Below the pieces are notes generated by a model, which saw only the letters and a program-made list of their open reading frames with translations, had not been told where the DNA came from and searched no databases. From positions 29,015 to 93,014 of the forward strand of contig JAUNDN010000004.1 in the NCBI GenBank assembly GCA_030526045.1: DNA of 64,000 bases. The letters run 5' to 3'. Made by a program: the position numbers and the translations under genes. Of the stretch, positions 35,791 to 52,440 are shown piece by piece (positions within the stretch are counted from its first letter, which is position 1; each line of letters starts with the position of its first letter). The DNA comes from Bacillota bacterium (GTDB lineage Bacteria; Bacillota; Clostridia; Lachnospirales; Lachnospiraceae).

Positions 35791-36093
35791 AAAAAAAGTC
35801 GCCTCCTTTTCGCACTTTTAATAAGATATAAGTACGACAAGCGGTGACTGTACACTCTGCCGTGCGTGTCCTGCTCTTCCACAAAGTTAAGTGCAGCTTT
35901 CTGCACACTTTACTTGAGCACGCTTAACGCCCGTGTTTCTGCCTCACTTGGCAGACAATAGGTTTGTACAGTGACTTGCCGTCAGGTTCTTAGGCCCGGC
36001 ATTGCCGGCCTCTTGACATTCGCTCCACGGAAAACCTGCAAAGCCTCTCGACCATGCAGCAACCTCACGCTTCATCGCTATCATGCCACAGCA
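35791..36093 (-). promoter_or_regulatory. Structured leader RNA of the S10 operon
   Basis: About 300 nt lie between the promoter and rpsJ. A long-range helix, ACTGTACA with TGTACAGT (about 35966-35973 with 35847-35854), extended by CAAG/CTTG, closes a domain. Inside are TCTGCC/GGCAGA, GCGTG+CTC with GAG+CACGC, and GTGCAG-AAAG-CTGCAC within a longer AAAGT/ACTTT stem. Upstream of the domain is a GC-rich hairpin (about 35991-36011). This looks like a regulatory leader; L4, L3 or S10 would be candidates for the ligand. Confidence 0.55.
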
Positions 36094-48266: not shown

Positions 48267-48770
48267 ATGAAAGCCTATCGAATCAAGGATGTAAAAAATT
48301 TTATGGGAAAGCTGCTCGGAAGTGAGTCCTTTGACTCCTTCCTGTTAGCGGAGGGTACCATTACCACCTACAATACCTTTATCATTGATGGGCATATGGT
48401 AAAAGAATTTTTCACAGGAGATGTGAACGACGATAACGATTTACCTCCCTACGAATTTTCCGAATGGAAGACTATGCGCTCCCTATGCTTTGATCTGATC
48501 AAAGGGAAACGTACTCCTGTAAGCTTCAAGCTGGTTCTCCATTTGAAACCGGAAATTGTGTCTCAAATTTTGGCGAATGGAGATTCTGCCATTTCCGTTT
48601 CCGACATCAAAGCCTTTGTACTGAATATAAAATACGATGGCAGTGTGCTTACCTGCATCACTGCCACCGCTTTTCACAGCTTTCTTCCTGATAAAACACC
48701 TGACAGACAATGGGATGAATATATCACCCTCTTTTTGACTTCCAAGGCGATTGATTTTGAAGAAATCTGA
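48267..48770 (+). CDS. DUF5721 family protein
   Basis: 167 residues, soluble, no signal peptide. It begins KAYRIKDVKNFMGKLLGSES and contains TYNTFIIDGHMVKEFF and PYEFSEWKTMRSLCFDLIKGKR. It matches, from memory, the DUF5721 proteins widespread in Lachnospiraceae, whose function is unknown. It lies 14 nt after trpS, with GGGAG before the ATG at 48267, and just ahead of a DUF3048 gene. I assign no role. Confidence 0.75.
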   Translation: MKAYRIKDVKNFMGKLLGSESFDSFLLAEGTITTYNTFIIDGHMVKEFFTGDVNDDNDLPPYEFSEWKTMRSLCFDLIKGKRTPVSFKLVLHLKPEIVSQILANGDSAISVSDIKAFVLNIKYDGSVLTCITATAFHSFLPDKTPDRQWDEYITLFLTSKAIDFEEI

Positions 48771-48822
48771 TCAACCAAGTATGATGTTTTATATCACCAT
48801 TTTTATGAGAAAGGGGTTTCCT

Positions 48823-49896
48823 ATGTACAAAAAGCAATTAACTCAGAAATTTTTTGCAGCAGGATTTGCTTTCGCATTCTGCGCTTTGGCTGTTCTTCTG
48901 TCTCCCTCTGCCACGGTTAAAAGTAATAAAGTCCTGGCAGATGAACAGGTCCACAGTGTCTACACCAATGAACTGATCTCTTCTGCTCAGGCTTCCCAGC
49001 GTCCCATCGCTGTTATGATGCCCACGGACAAGGCGGCACAGCCTTCCTACGGAATCGGAAATGCCAAGATTCTTTATGAGATCATGGAGGAGGGTGAGAT
49101 TTCCCGTCAGCTTGCAATCATTGATGACTGGCAGGGGCTTAACAGAATCGGAAATATCCGGAGTTGTCGTGACTACTATATCTCGATTGCCACTGAATGG
49201 GATCCGATTCTGATCCATTTCGGCGGAGTATGCTATATGAAGGATCGTATCACGGCACCTGATATCAATAACCTGTCCGGTACTTATGAATACGGTGTCG
49301 GCGGTGACAGACCGGGATCGGGTCAGTTCTTCCGCTCCACTGACAGAAAGGTACCACATAACGCTTACATCAGCGCTGAAGGGGTCACGAAAGCCTGCAA
49401 TAATCTGGGATATTCCCTTACAACCAGACCGGAATACTACAACACCTCCCATTTCAGCTTTGCAGAAGGCGTAAATACGCTGGAACAGTATGGAAATGCA
49501 ATTCCCGGTAACGTAATTGACCTTTCAGGCATCTTTACCTACACCAAGAGCTATTTTACATACGATCCGGCAACCGGATTATATAATAAGAACCTTCACG
49601 GTAAAGCACAGGTTGATGGTCTGACCGGCCAGCAGCTGACCTTTGCCAATGTTATTATCCAAAATACCAAATGGTCCAAGCGCGATGCCAAGGGATATCT
49701 TGCTTTCCAGACCATCGATTCCACCGGAGACGGTTATTACTTTACCAAAGGGCGCGGAATCCACATCACCTGGAAAAAGACCTCTGACTATTCGCCTACA
49801 AAATATTATGATGACAACGGAAATGAGATTCAGCTGAACACCGGCAAAACCTACATCGGAGTTGCACAGGCCGGCCGGGCTGTTGCATATTCCTGA
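48823..49896 (+). CDS. Secreted DUF3048 protein
   Basis: 357 residues from the ATG at 48823, which follows AAGGGG; the frame is open from 48751. The N-terminus is a signal peptide or anchor (FFAAGFAFAFCALAVLLSPSA) without a clear lipobox. The DUF3048 domain has PIAVMMPTDKAAQPSYGIGN, GLNRIGNIRSC and HFGG; the C-terminal part ends in LNTGKTYIGVAQ, nearly the same as the paralogue at 16078. The two differ in anchoring. Function is unknown. The gene ends 22 nt before the giant palindrome. Confidence 0.85.
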   Translation: MYKKQLTQKFFAAGFAFAFCALAVLLSPSATVKSNKVLADEQVHSVYTNELISSAQASQRPIAVMMPTDKAAQPSYGIGNAKILYEIMEEGEISRQLAIIDDWQGLNRIGNIRSCRDYYISIATEWDPILIHFGGVCYMKDRITAPDINNLSGTYEYGVGGDRPGSGQFFRSTDRKVPHNAYISAEGVTKACNNLGYSLTTRPEYYNTSHFSFAEGVNTLEQYGNAIPGNVIDLSGIFTYTKSYFTYDPATGLYNKNLHGKAQVDGLTGQQLTFANVIIQNTKWSKRDAKGYLAFQTIDSTGDGYYFTKGRGIHITWKKTSDYSPTKYYDDNGNEIQLNTGKTYIGVAQAGRAVAYS

Positions 49897-49918: not shown

Positions 49919-50410
49919 CACAAATAACAAGAACCGTTACCGAATCAGTCTGCCCCCTTGAGAGCATGTATCCTTCCTTCCGTAAAACATATAGACGATT
50001 TGGATGGATTTGGCAGAAACAGCCGGTGCAATAATGTCATTGTCCGGATGACTGTCCGAAAAGCCGGTGGTGGTATTTATGTGCTCGTCACACGCAAAAC
50101 GGGCAAGAAAAATCTAACCCGCGCATGAAAAATAAGAACAGCTCTCAGACTTTAAACTCGCTTCGCTTCGAACAGGTAAAGTCTGAGAGCTTTATTTTTC
50201 ATTGCGCGGGTTGATTTTTTACGCCCGTTTCCGAATTGTTCCTTACACATAAATACCACCTGCCGGCTTTGAGTTTCATCCGGACAGTGTAATAAGCATT
50301 TGCACCGGCGGGGTTCGCCAAATCCCGAAATCGTTTATCGTTTTACGGAAGGAAGGATACATGCCTTTAAGAGGACAGCCGATTTCGGCAACAGTCCTTG
50401 TTAATTTGTG
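49919..50410. repeat. Giant imperfect palindrome filling the intergenic region
   Basis: Left arm about 49919-50154 and right arm about 50177-50410 are imperfect reverse complements over some 230 nt each. The perfect core (50141-50154 with 50177-50190, 14 bp) has a 22-nt loop. Well-matched blocks include GCATGTATCCTTCCTTCC (near 49964 and 50370), CTGTCCGGATG-type and TGGTATTTATGTG sequences. Many differences are A/G, which keep G-U pairs in RNA. It contains no open frame and reaches the last codons of the EAL gene. It could be a structured RNA, a MITE-like repeat or a large two-way terminator. Confidence 0.85.
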
Positions 50411-52329
50411 TCATTTCTATCCTTCAGGAACTGGATAAACTGATCAGCAGGAATCGGCCTTGAATAGTAATAGCCCTGTAAATAATCAACCCCATGCTCC
50501 ACCAGATAATTGACCATTTCCTCCGTCTCGACACCTTCCGCCACGATTTTCATTCCGATCGACTTAATCAGACTGATGGCAGAAGCCAGAAGCCGCTCGG
50601 CCTTTTCGTTTTCAATGCCATCCTCTTCCGTCTCAAACACCGGCCAGATCAAGCTCTTGTCCAGCTTCACCAGGTCATACCTAATGCGGTTCATCTGTGC
50701 TATATTGGAATAGCCGGTTCCGAAATCATCCATGGAAAAGCTGAAGCCCAGCGCTCGCAGACTGCTGATATTCTTTTCAAAGGTTGCACCGAAATTTACA
50801 GTAGCCGTCTCCGTGATCTCCAGATTGAAAAAGGATGCCGGAATTCCATATCGGTCGATGATACGCTCTAACCTCTTATCAAGGTGAGGAATAACAGCCT
50901 GGATTGCAGAGAGGTTCACTTCGATATACTTAATCGGAGATCCGACAAGATTCTTTTCTTTTGCCATTTTTGCCACCAATTCAAGCGCACGGTCTCCTAT
51001 CTCATTGATCAGCCCCTTTTCCTCCGCAAGAGGAATAAATTCCTCCGGAGAAACAAATCCCAGCTCCCCGCAATTTTTTAAACGTATCAAGGCCTCTGCT
51101 GATGTAAATTTCTTTTCTTTGCTGTTATAGATAGGCTGGTAAACCATCTCAAATCCGTCTCCGGCTATCGCCTCATCCAAAAGTGCATCAATCTTATCTC
51201 TTCTTTGCTTTTCCTTTATGATCTCCTCACTTAAAAAGCAGATCTTACATTCATTTCCCAGCATTCTTTCTGTTAGGAAATCAAGCAGCTCATCCACCTG
51301 TGTCCATGATGTTGTATATTTTCTCACATCCAGCACGCTGATAAAGCAATTCATCTGGATATCACTATATTCTTCCTTCTTAAGTTCTAACTCCAGTTCA
51401 TGCAGTTTTTCGATCTCCTGCCTGATATCTTTCTGAATAAAAATGCTCAGACACTTATCACTGGAATGATAAACCTCTTTTCCGGTATGCTTTGCTAAGG
51501 CCTCTTTCAAACTTACTAAAGCCTGAATTCCTTTTTCCCTGCCGGCAATTTTATAGACTCTGTCAATATTTCTACAGGTGAGGGTTACCACATAAAGTGG
51601 TTTTTTTCTGGCATAATTTTCTGCCAGCATTTTGTGAAATGCATTGCGATTAAAACACTCTGCTTCCGAATCAAAATTCTCCTTCTGATTTTCTCCCGAA
51701 AAATAAAATGCAAGGATCATCAGAACAAATCCCAGACCTGACAGGAGAAGTCGTGGGAATATCGCCTGTATTGCCAGTACAGTAATCCAGATAATACAGC
51801 CGATCATTACAGAGGACCTTTGCCTCGGGGTAACATATCCATGCTTGTTGGAAATCAGCTTAAACACCATAATCAGATAGATCAGCCCACAGGCATAAAT
51901 TGCAGTCAGCAATGGTCCGTAGGAATATGCATAAATCCCATCTGAATAGTAATAGAAATCCCCTCTCAAAATAATAATCAAAGAAACTGCAATCGGTAAA
52001 ACAGAAAGCAACGCTTCCCGCTTTTCCAGACGCTTCTGATTACTAGCGAGCATCCTTATGTAAAGGTACTCGAAAAAGAGGGCAAAGATTACACTTGCAT
52101 AAAACAATTGATGAAACACCCGGTTCCAAAACATCGGAACAGTATCAAGATGGGTAACGGTATATACCGTAATCATATCCAGAGTCAGATTGACAGCCGT
52201 CGTCCCCAGCATAATACAGAAATATCTGGATGAATTCAGCTTCAAATGAGGATTTTTGATATAATCGATCACAATTGTAAGAAGCACAAGCATTGCTGCA
52301 ATCTGAAATCTGATGTTTAACGTAAACAT
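50401..52329 (-). CDS. Membrane EAL-domain c-di-GMP phosphodiesterase with degenerate GGDEF
   Basis: 642 residues from the ATG at 52329 (AGGGGG upstream). Seven or so membrane helices (about 1-215) precede a degenerate GGDEF domain in which the active site reads SSDKC, so no cyclase activity is expected. The EAL domain is complete: SAEALIR, NLEITE, DDFGTGYSN, KLDKS, AEGVETEE and LQGYYYSRP. It should hydrolyse c-di-GMP, with the membrane part as sensor. Its stop codon lies in the end of the giant palindrome. Confidence 0.9.
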   Translation of the reverse strand: MFTLNIRFQIAAMLVLLTIVIDYIKNPHLKLNSSRYFCIMLGTTAVNLTLDMITVYTVTHLDTVPMFWNRVFHQLFYASVIFALFFEYLYIRMLASNQKRLEKREALLSVLPIAVSLIIILRGDFYYYSDGIYAYSYGPLLTAIYACGLIYLIMVFKLISNKHGYVTPRQRSSVMIGCIIWITVLAIQAIFPRLLLSGLGFVLMILAFYFSGENQKENFDSEAECFNRNAFHKMLAENYARKKPLYVVTLTCRNIDRVYKIAGREKGIQALVSLKEALAKHTGKEVYHSSDKCLSIFIQKDIRQEIEKLHELELELKKEEYSDIQMNCFISVLDVRKYTTSWTQVDELLDFLTERMLGNECKICFLSEEIIKEKQRRDKIDALLDEAIAGDGFEMVYQPIYNSKEKKFTSAEALIRLKNCGELGFVSPEEFIPLAEEKGLINEIGDRALELVAKMAKEKNLVGSPIKYIEVNLSAIQAVIPHLDKRLERIIDRYGIPASFFNLEITETATVNFGATFEKNISSLRALGFSFSMDDFGTGYSNIAQMNRIRYDLVKLDKSLIWPVFETEEDGIENEKAERLLASAISLIKSIGMKIVAEGVETEEMVNYLVEHGVDYLQGYYYSRPIPADQFIQFLKDRNDTN

Positions 52330-52440
52330 ATTCTCTCTTCCCCCTGCTAAAGGAACCCAATATCTATATTCTATGAGAGCAACATTTTGTCGCTTATGCA
52401 AGAATTATATCAGATTTTGGGGTATAGATAAATACATAAT

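Follow-up and report, generated by a model that had tools for sequence, protein, structure and literature searches.

A dispersed family of large polar hairpins near gene 3' ends, found almost only in one Lachnospiraceae genus, is probably mobile

The window, by which we mean the whole 64,000-nt stretch of DNA that was analysed (a Lachnospiraceae genome, GenBank assembly GCA_030526045.1, contig JAUNDN010000004.1), carries two convergent genes, one for a DUF3048 protein and one for an EAL-domain protein, with a palindrome of almost 500 nt between them (Table 1). A first-pass annotation, made from the sequence alone, had described arms that pair over nearly their full length around a 22-nt tip, contain no open frame and extend into the last codons of the EAL gene. 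All of this was borne out: inverted-repeat alignment recovered the pairing of the arms, no ORF of at least 60 aa lies wholly within the palindrome, and the right arm contains the last codons of the EAL gene (10 nt overlap). The predicted RNA fold of the palindrome reached -268.9 kcal/mol, compared with -125.8 +/- 5.7 kcal/mol for 100 dinucleotide shuffles, none of which was as low (z = -25). Its identity to its own reverse complement is 74%. The difference of about 26% between the arms, and the location of many copies of the element inside contigs, make an assembly artefact unlikely.

Table 1. Features of the palindrome and of the genes beside it, in window positions
Feature	Position	Strand	Basis or detail
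Whole palindromic element, 492 nt	49919..50410	+	Inverted-repeat arms, fold, dispersed copies
Left arm	49919..50154	+	Inverted-repeat blocks I1, I3, I9, I6, I2, I7
Right arm	50177..50410	+	Final 10 nt are the EAL gene end including stop codon
Conserved 20-nt tip AACTCGCTTCGCTTCGAACA	50155..50174	+	Common to hairpins in other phyla
Apical terminator-like hairpin	50140..50191	+	15-bp stem 50140-50154/50177-50191 (block I7)
Core matched by covariance model R1	50083..50247	+	131.5 bits; G000:C6:79097-79261
Middle and basal stems with conserved asymmetric internal loops	50006..50325	+	Stem blocks 50006-50031/50300-50325 and 50038-50051/50276-50289 (I3, I9); conserved islands
Left convergent gene, DUF3048 protein	48751..49896	+	ORF list, domain search
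Right convergent gene, EAL-domain protein	50401..52401	-	ORF list, Pfam EAL

The apical stem is preceded by A-rich and followed by T-rich sequence, and on sequence inspection the apical hairpin with its flanks reads on both strands as a terminator, a G+C-bearing hairpin with a T tract after it; a terminator pattern scan with a loop limit of 3-8 returned none at the window apex, and a pattern scan found no promoter-like site. The Rfam search proposed in the first pass gave no family at gathering score at the palindrome; with relaxed thresholds only implausible sub-threshold matches appeared on it, and related elements at eight loci gave no credible match. The sole Rfam match at gathering score in the window was an S10-Clostridia ribosomal protein leader at 36002-36083 (- strand).

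In the window's own genome (G000), DNA search located 13 places, the window copy included, and a covariance model of the central part of the element (R1, built from 15 non-redundant cores) located 14. The family consists mostly of 250-500-nt polar hairpin elements; self-palindromes measure mostly 250-650 nt under a permissive alignment that can run into flanks, and stricter arms extend 155-249 nt on each side in nine copies. The main copies are 84-96% identical when compared in the same orientation, and opposite arms about 67-74%; copies in the same orientation thus resemble each other more closely than the arms of a single copy do, so the palindrome predates its dispersal and moved as a polar whole. 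The closest relative found (G033) carries a 96% identical copy at the orthologous site (L020) and further copies elsewhere, and diverged relatives with the same layout occur in other species of the genus. Among the 37 genomes of the genus set, G000 included, R1 was positive in 13 (12 with more than one match) and gave no match in 24; in the order set, searched with stricter filters, 2 of 196 genomes matched, namely G000 and one weak case. The element is nearly confined to a single Lachnospiraceae genus. A tree of 72 cores revealed lineage-specific bursts, with 18 window-subfamily copies of G000 and G033 sharing one long branch; the nearest core lay in the same genome for 38 of 75 loci, and copies of G000 and G033 often paired together. 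No description of the element or its tip was found in the literature searched, which includes few subscription journals.

We compared the gene context of the copies. Of 75 model-matched loci we examined 72, and for 69 of these a gene could be called to the left and to the right: 39 copies lay between convergent, 24 between codirectional and 6 between divergent genes, those between codirectional genes pointing either way (14 and 10). When G000 and G033 are combined, 26 of the 31 analysed copies were between convergent genes; for the background, a similar ORF method found 10 of 66 pairs of genes to be convergent in the window, and 10 of 87 among the other pairs near elements. Many copies adjoin stop codons, and most of the window subfamily span the gap from stop codon to stop codon.

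Comparison between species shows this dispersal together with orthologous sites that are empty. At the L037 site of G033 the element adjoins a still-intact terminator; seven other species (G016, G031, G027, G021, G018, G026 and G009) have a gap of 124-182 nt from which the element is absent, with a short hairpin in most and a right flank match that is weak in some. The corresponding 131-nt gap in G000 may be a deletion remnant, and no alignment for G011 was usable. The 3' end of a gene that, from its sequence, we take to be pyrD-like is filled in G007, G017 and G012 and empty in 10 genomes, with gaps of 23-69 nt and no predicted hairpin in G023, G003, G000 and G030; the L294 site is likewise empty and free of a hairpin in G030 and G003. 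For the window copy itself, a search for orthologues of the EAL protein gave paralogues only among the genomes searched, a set without G033.

The L297 site is the most informative about the mode of entry. Here the close relative G007 has an ordinary terminator with a 12-bp stem (AAAAAAGTGGTA/TACCACTTTTTT) and the loop GTTT, and in G017 the outermost arms of a 471-nt palindrome (AAAAAGTGATA and TACCACTTTTT) are the two halves of the G007 terminator with one change; a hairpin that ends in TACCACTTTTTT is also retained in G016, G026 has just the right half, and the hairpin of G015 is a different one. With terminator halves flanking the insert, the element entered the terminator loop, which is direct evidence of such an insertion at this one site. 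The loop was rejected as the only target, since several empty sites have no hairpin and the L037 copy stands beside an intact terminator. No target-site duplication was visible by eye at L037 or L297, where flank divergence blurs the edges. Three sites hold differing copies in two species: L298 and L306, at a presumably clpX-like site, are in opposite orientation, as are L301 and L293, which have their outermost ~20 bp in common, and L294 and L305 belong to different subfamilies. Such differences would mean either recurrent insertion or later exchange or flipping, and a single old insertion that was subsequently converted or flipped could also account for them.

The outer parts of the element are less uniform than its core. 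Nine copies of the G017/G007 group are alike only to about 147-216 nt left and 155-214 nt right of the tip, apart from one pair whose likeness continues into common flanking DNA; in six of the nine the self-palindrome reaches 226-249 nt and so outruns the common part, from which it follows that the outer stems pair although they are for the most part specific to each copy. The target terminator supplied the outermost 11-12 bp at the L297 site, and an inverted duplication of the target is a possible source of the outer stems. In the window subfamily several copies have related ends (TTGCATAAATC-like). Decay was also seen, with the apex or an arm lost at L014, L016 and the L018 and L012 sites. 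In L014 (G000:C8 ~84975-85145) the apex is lost and the hairpin is now perfect, the middle part of one arm being an exact inverted copy of the other, as template switching predicts; L016 is a short perfect hairpin. Three ~650-nt composites (L025, L027 and L031, in G032/G031) hold two adjacent giant hairpins in a common outer stem, with ends like AAATTAACGTTTAGC; two ~75-nt hairpins of G033 (L087 and L089), whose ends resemble those of the window subfamily (CTGTTGCATAAATC), are either element remnants or typical target terminators; and ~53-nt near-repeats (AGCCACGCGGTGAAGCGACGTAGCG-like) precede an element remnant near L015 (2230-2450).

Covariation, which the first pass had proposed to look for, is strong in the core: double changes were found at 30 of 49 consensus pairs, the covariation score was 0.474 compared with 0.193 for shuffled and 0.07-0.16 for slid alignments, and 91.7% of alignment cells were paired relative to 75.5% in shuffles. 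Four orthologue pairs of G000 and G033 had 0, 0, 1 and 9 double changes in their arms, few events for a judgement on concerted arm evolution. The first pass had further argued that many A/G differences between the arms keep RNA pairing through G-U. In a strand-specific RNA stem, G-U should be far better tolerated than A-C; the two mismatches were instead equally frequent in 16 loci (81 G-U and 80 A-C) and, in arm alignments made without regard to G-U, over 75 loci (242 and 239) and 34 non-redundant loci (94 and 93), and for this reason the argument fails and RNA-strand selection by G-U bias was rejected. Looser scoring gave 365 against 325 (p = 0.14) and 167 against 155. The + strand of the window copy has 6 G-U and 10 A-C mismatches when the arms are aligned slightly beyond the ends in Table 1. 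Split by distance over the loci, A-C lead by 103 to 73 within 90 nt of the tip, and farther out G-U lead by 169 to 136. Pairs chosen by a folding program did favour G-U over A-C (53 to 22 in set A1, 194 to 98 in set A2), an excess on which we do not rely because such a program permits G-U when choosing pairs. The A/G arm differences are plain transitions, with neither strand preferring RNA pairing, and the mismatch pattern fits a DNA-level palindrome or constraints that weigh equally on the two strands. During replication, template switching is described as able to create and repair stems and to yield double changes (PMC8794818). The internal-loop islands and the tip are conserved while the stems change; this speaks against a wholly mutational explanation and suggests that some structure is under selection.

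Candidates for a mobilising enzyme were sought by gene presence and by terminal sequence. Of the 13 carriers 7, and of the 24 non-carriers 14, have the Y1 (RAYT-type) transposase domain PF01797, which was not found in the carriers G000, G005, G012, G015, G018 and G031; neither Y1 nor IS110 transposases track the presence of the element, and both were rejected as its mobiliser. In a search for an autonomous element, the terminal 16-mer, with up to 2 mismatches, was located at 6 places in G000 and 14 in G033; in these draft genomes no pair stands at transposon distance on one contig except around elements or small hairpins, and none was seen to enclose a stretch the size of a gene.

The distribution of the tip is wider than that of the element. 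In a collection of 84,980 species genomes the 20-nt tip was found in 105 stretches, and in none of the viral contigs searched; outside the Lachnospiraceae, Tannerella forsythia, Proteiniphilum, Clostridium frigidicarnis, a Desulfuromonadaceae MAG and others carry multiple copies of it. For 69 of 101 distinct tips, the AAAAATCT block of the Lachnospiraceae is not present within 90 nt; these 69 include some giants, and a stem of at least 8 pairs directly flanks 56 of the 69, compared with 4.1% when the 14-nt flanks were shuffled. The shorter hairpins have the tip in common with the giants, but not the stems; in the set L092-L196 the same tip caps unrelated stems (for example L097, L101, L106, L122 and L141), and several of these hairpins show a CTAAA block before the stem and a T-run with TTTTA after it. 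A sister tip, AACTYGCTNCGCTYRRACA, is one base shorter than forms capping some giants of the genus; this form is absent from G000 and was found in 14 of the 398 genomes of the phylum set (G436, G260, G278 and G499 among them), up to 36 times, and its reversed control pattern in none of the genomes listed. The 36 copies are in G436, and several of the copies listed sit at the ends of contigs, where assembly-breaking repeats are expected.

Taken together, we consider it probable, at roughly 70%, that the palindrome is a MITE-like, non-autonomous mobile hairpin which inserts at the 3' ends of genes, in some cases into terminator loops, and brings with it a two-way terminator-like apex. Of the three options left by the first pass, the MITE-like palindrome is the best supported, by the copies, the empty sites, the patchiness and the bursts; the G-U basis for its structured RNA did not hold. 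Copies and covariation, whose absence the first pass had named among the grounds for refutation, both exist. A transposase or recombinase acting in trans would move the element, probably by recognising hairpin DNA, and insertion would be tolerated, or harmless, since a two-way terminator-like apex comes with the element. The arms may stay complementary largely by template-switch (quasipalindrome) correction rather than by RNA selection. The remaining option, a giant bidirectional terminator, is a plausible by-product, because the apex looks like a terminator whichever way it is read and many copies lie next to the 3' ends of genes.

Three other explanations were weighed against the mobile hairpin. 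Selection on RNA pairing could keep the hairpin as a structured non-coding RNA (3'-UTR element or sRNA), which would account for the core covariation (30 of 49 pairs, 0.474 against 0.193), the conserved islands and tip, and the G-U excess of A1 and A2; however, that excess vanishes in unbiased arm alignments (242/239 and 94/93), there is no Rfam match at gathering score and no credible one below it, 24 of 37 congeners do not have the element, copies beside codirectional genes face either way (14 and 10), the scan gave no promoter-like site, and template switching can also make compensatory changes (PMC8794818), all of which make us regard this reading as unlikely. A bidirectional terminator might instead have grown in place by repeated template-switch inversion, without mobility, as the many stop-to-stop copies of the window subfamily, the apex that is terminator-like on both strands, the perfect recopied arm of L014 and the short perfect hairpin of L016 would suggest. 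Such growth is already weakened by the shared cores, since the ~165-nt core would have had to arise separately at every locus, and homologous cores at unrelated loci, subfamily bursts, the 30 of 69 copies that are codirectional or divergent and the orthologous sites with plain short gaps speak against it, making it the least probable of the explanations considered.

Sites of the attC kind, which act as folded strands and are recombined by a dedicated integrase, offer a further comparison. An attC-like DNA site, folded as a single strand, with a site-specific recombinase reading the tip and the asymmetric loops, could spread by recombination between sites; polarity with conserved extrahelical positions, the tip on unrelated stems across phyla, mismatches without RNA-strand preference and opposite orientations at shared sites are all consistent with it. 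No linked recombinase gene was identified, and we give this mechanism only a very small chance. Returning to the mobile hairpin, a bolder extension, which we put forward tentatively and think doubtful, is that the tip marks a phylum-spanning class of mobile hairpins moved into gene 3' ends by one undiscovered hairpin-recognising machinery. Within this extension, that machinery would be the reason why AACTYGCTYCGCTTCGRACA and AACTYGCTNCGCTYRRACA are multicopy and patchy in Lachnospiraceae and other Bacillota and why AACTYGCTYCGCTTCGRACA occurs also in Bacteroidota and Desulfuromonadaceae on unrelated stems, and the Lachnospiraceae giants would be the largest members seen, with extra conserved internal-loop modules. 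If the tip marks one machinery, the spread of palindromic repeats without a known transposase becomes testable.

As a mobile hairpin, the element would add a large class to the mobile palindromes, with entry into a terminator loop directly evidenced at one site; such entry would explain these repeats as near-neutral passengers between convergent genes. It also offers a natural case for testing whether strong covariation in a stem must imply a functional RNA; here covariation is strong and G-U no commoner than A-C.

Among known systems, GTAG- and CGTC-tagged REPs are described as 20-40 bp long, dispersed and mostly extragenic, with a tetranucleotide tag at one end, lying mainly between convergent or unidirectional genes near 3' ends in several phyla, the CGTC REPs without a known dedicated transposase (PMC3733652). 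By that description the element resembles REPs in being dispersed, multicopy and palindromic, in lying near 3' ends between convergent genes, in reaching several phyla and in having no known transposase; it differs in its size of mostly 250-500 bp, in a signature that sits at the tip and in a presence independent of Y1 genes. The bcr1-bcr3 repeats of the Bacillus cereus group, described as MITE-like and often part of UTRs (PMC3446304), are likewise short, non-coding, multicopy and intergenic. Our element agrees with MITEs in being short, non-coding and multicopy and in that orthologous sites are filled in some species of the genus and empty in others; unlike MITEs and bcr1-bcr3, it is a near full-length palindrome with outer stems that are copy-specific in several copies, prefers 3' ends, showed no fixed terminal repeats across subfamilies, and in the sites and draft genomes searched revealed neither target duplication nor autonomous partner. 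Stem-loop families from a survey of 40 genomes, in which 67 of 92 models measured 31-200 bp (PMC2267715), are also repeated and fold as stem-loops; compared with them by description only, the element is larger, nearly genus-restricted and shares its tip across phyla. IS1397, ISKpn1 and IS621 are reported to insert into REP palindromes, often between convergent genes (PMC1525189), a likeness in the use of an extragenic palindrome as target, but they carry transposase genes, whereas the element is a non-coding hairpin for which loop insertion was shown at one terminator only. Too large for a REP, not following RAYT-type genes and without proven terminal repeats, the element is filed among the mobile palindromic repeats.
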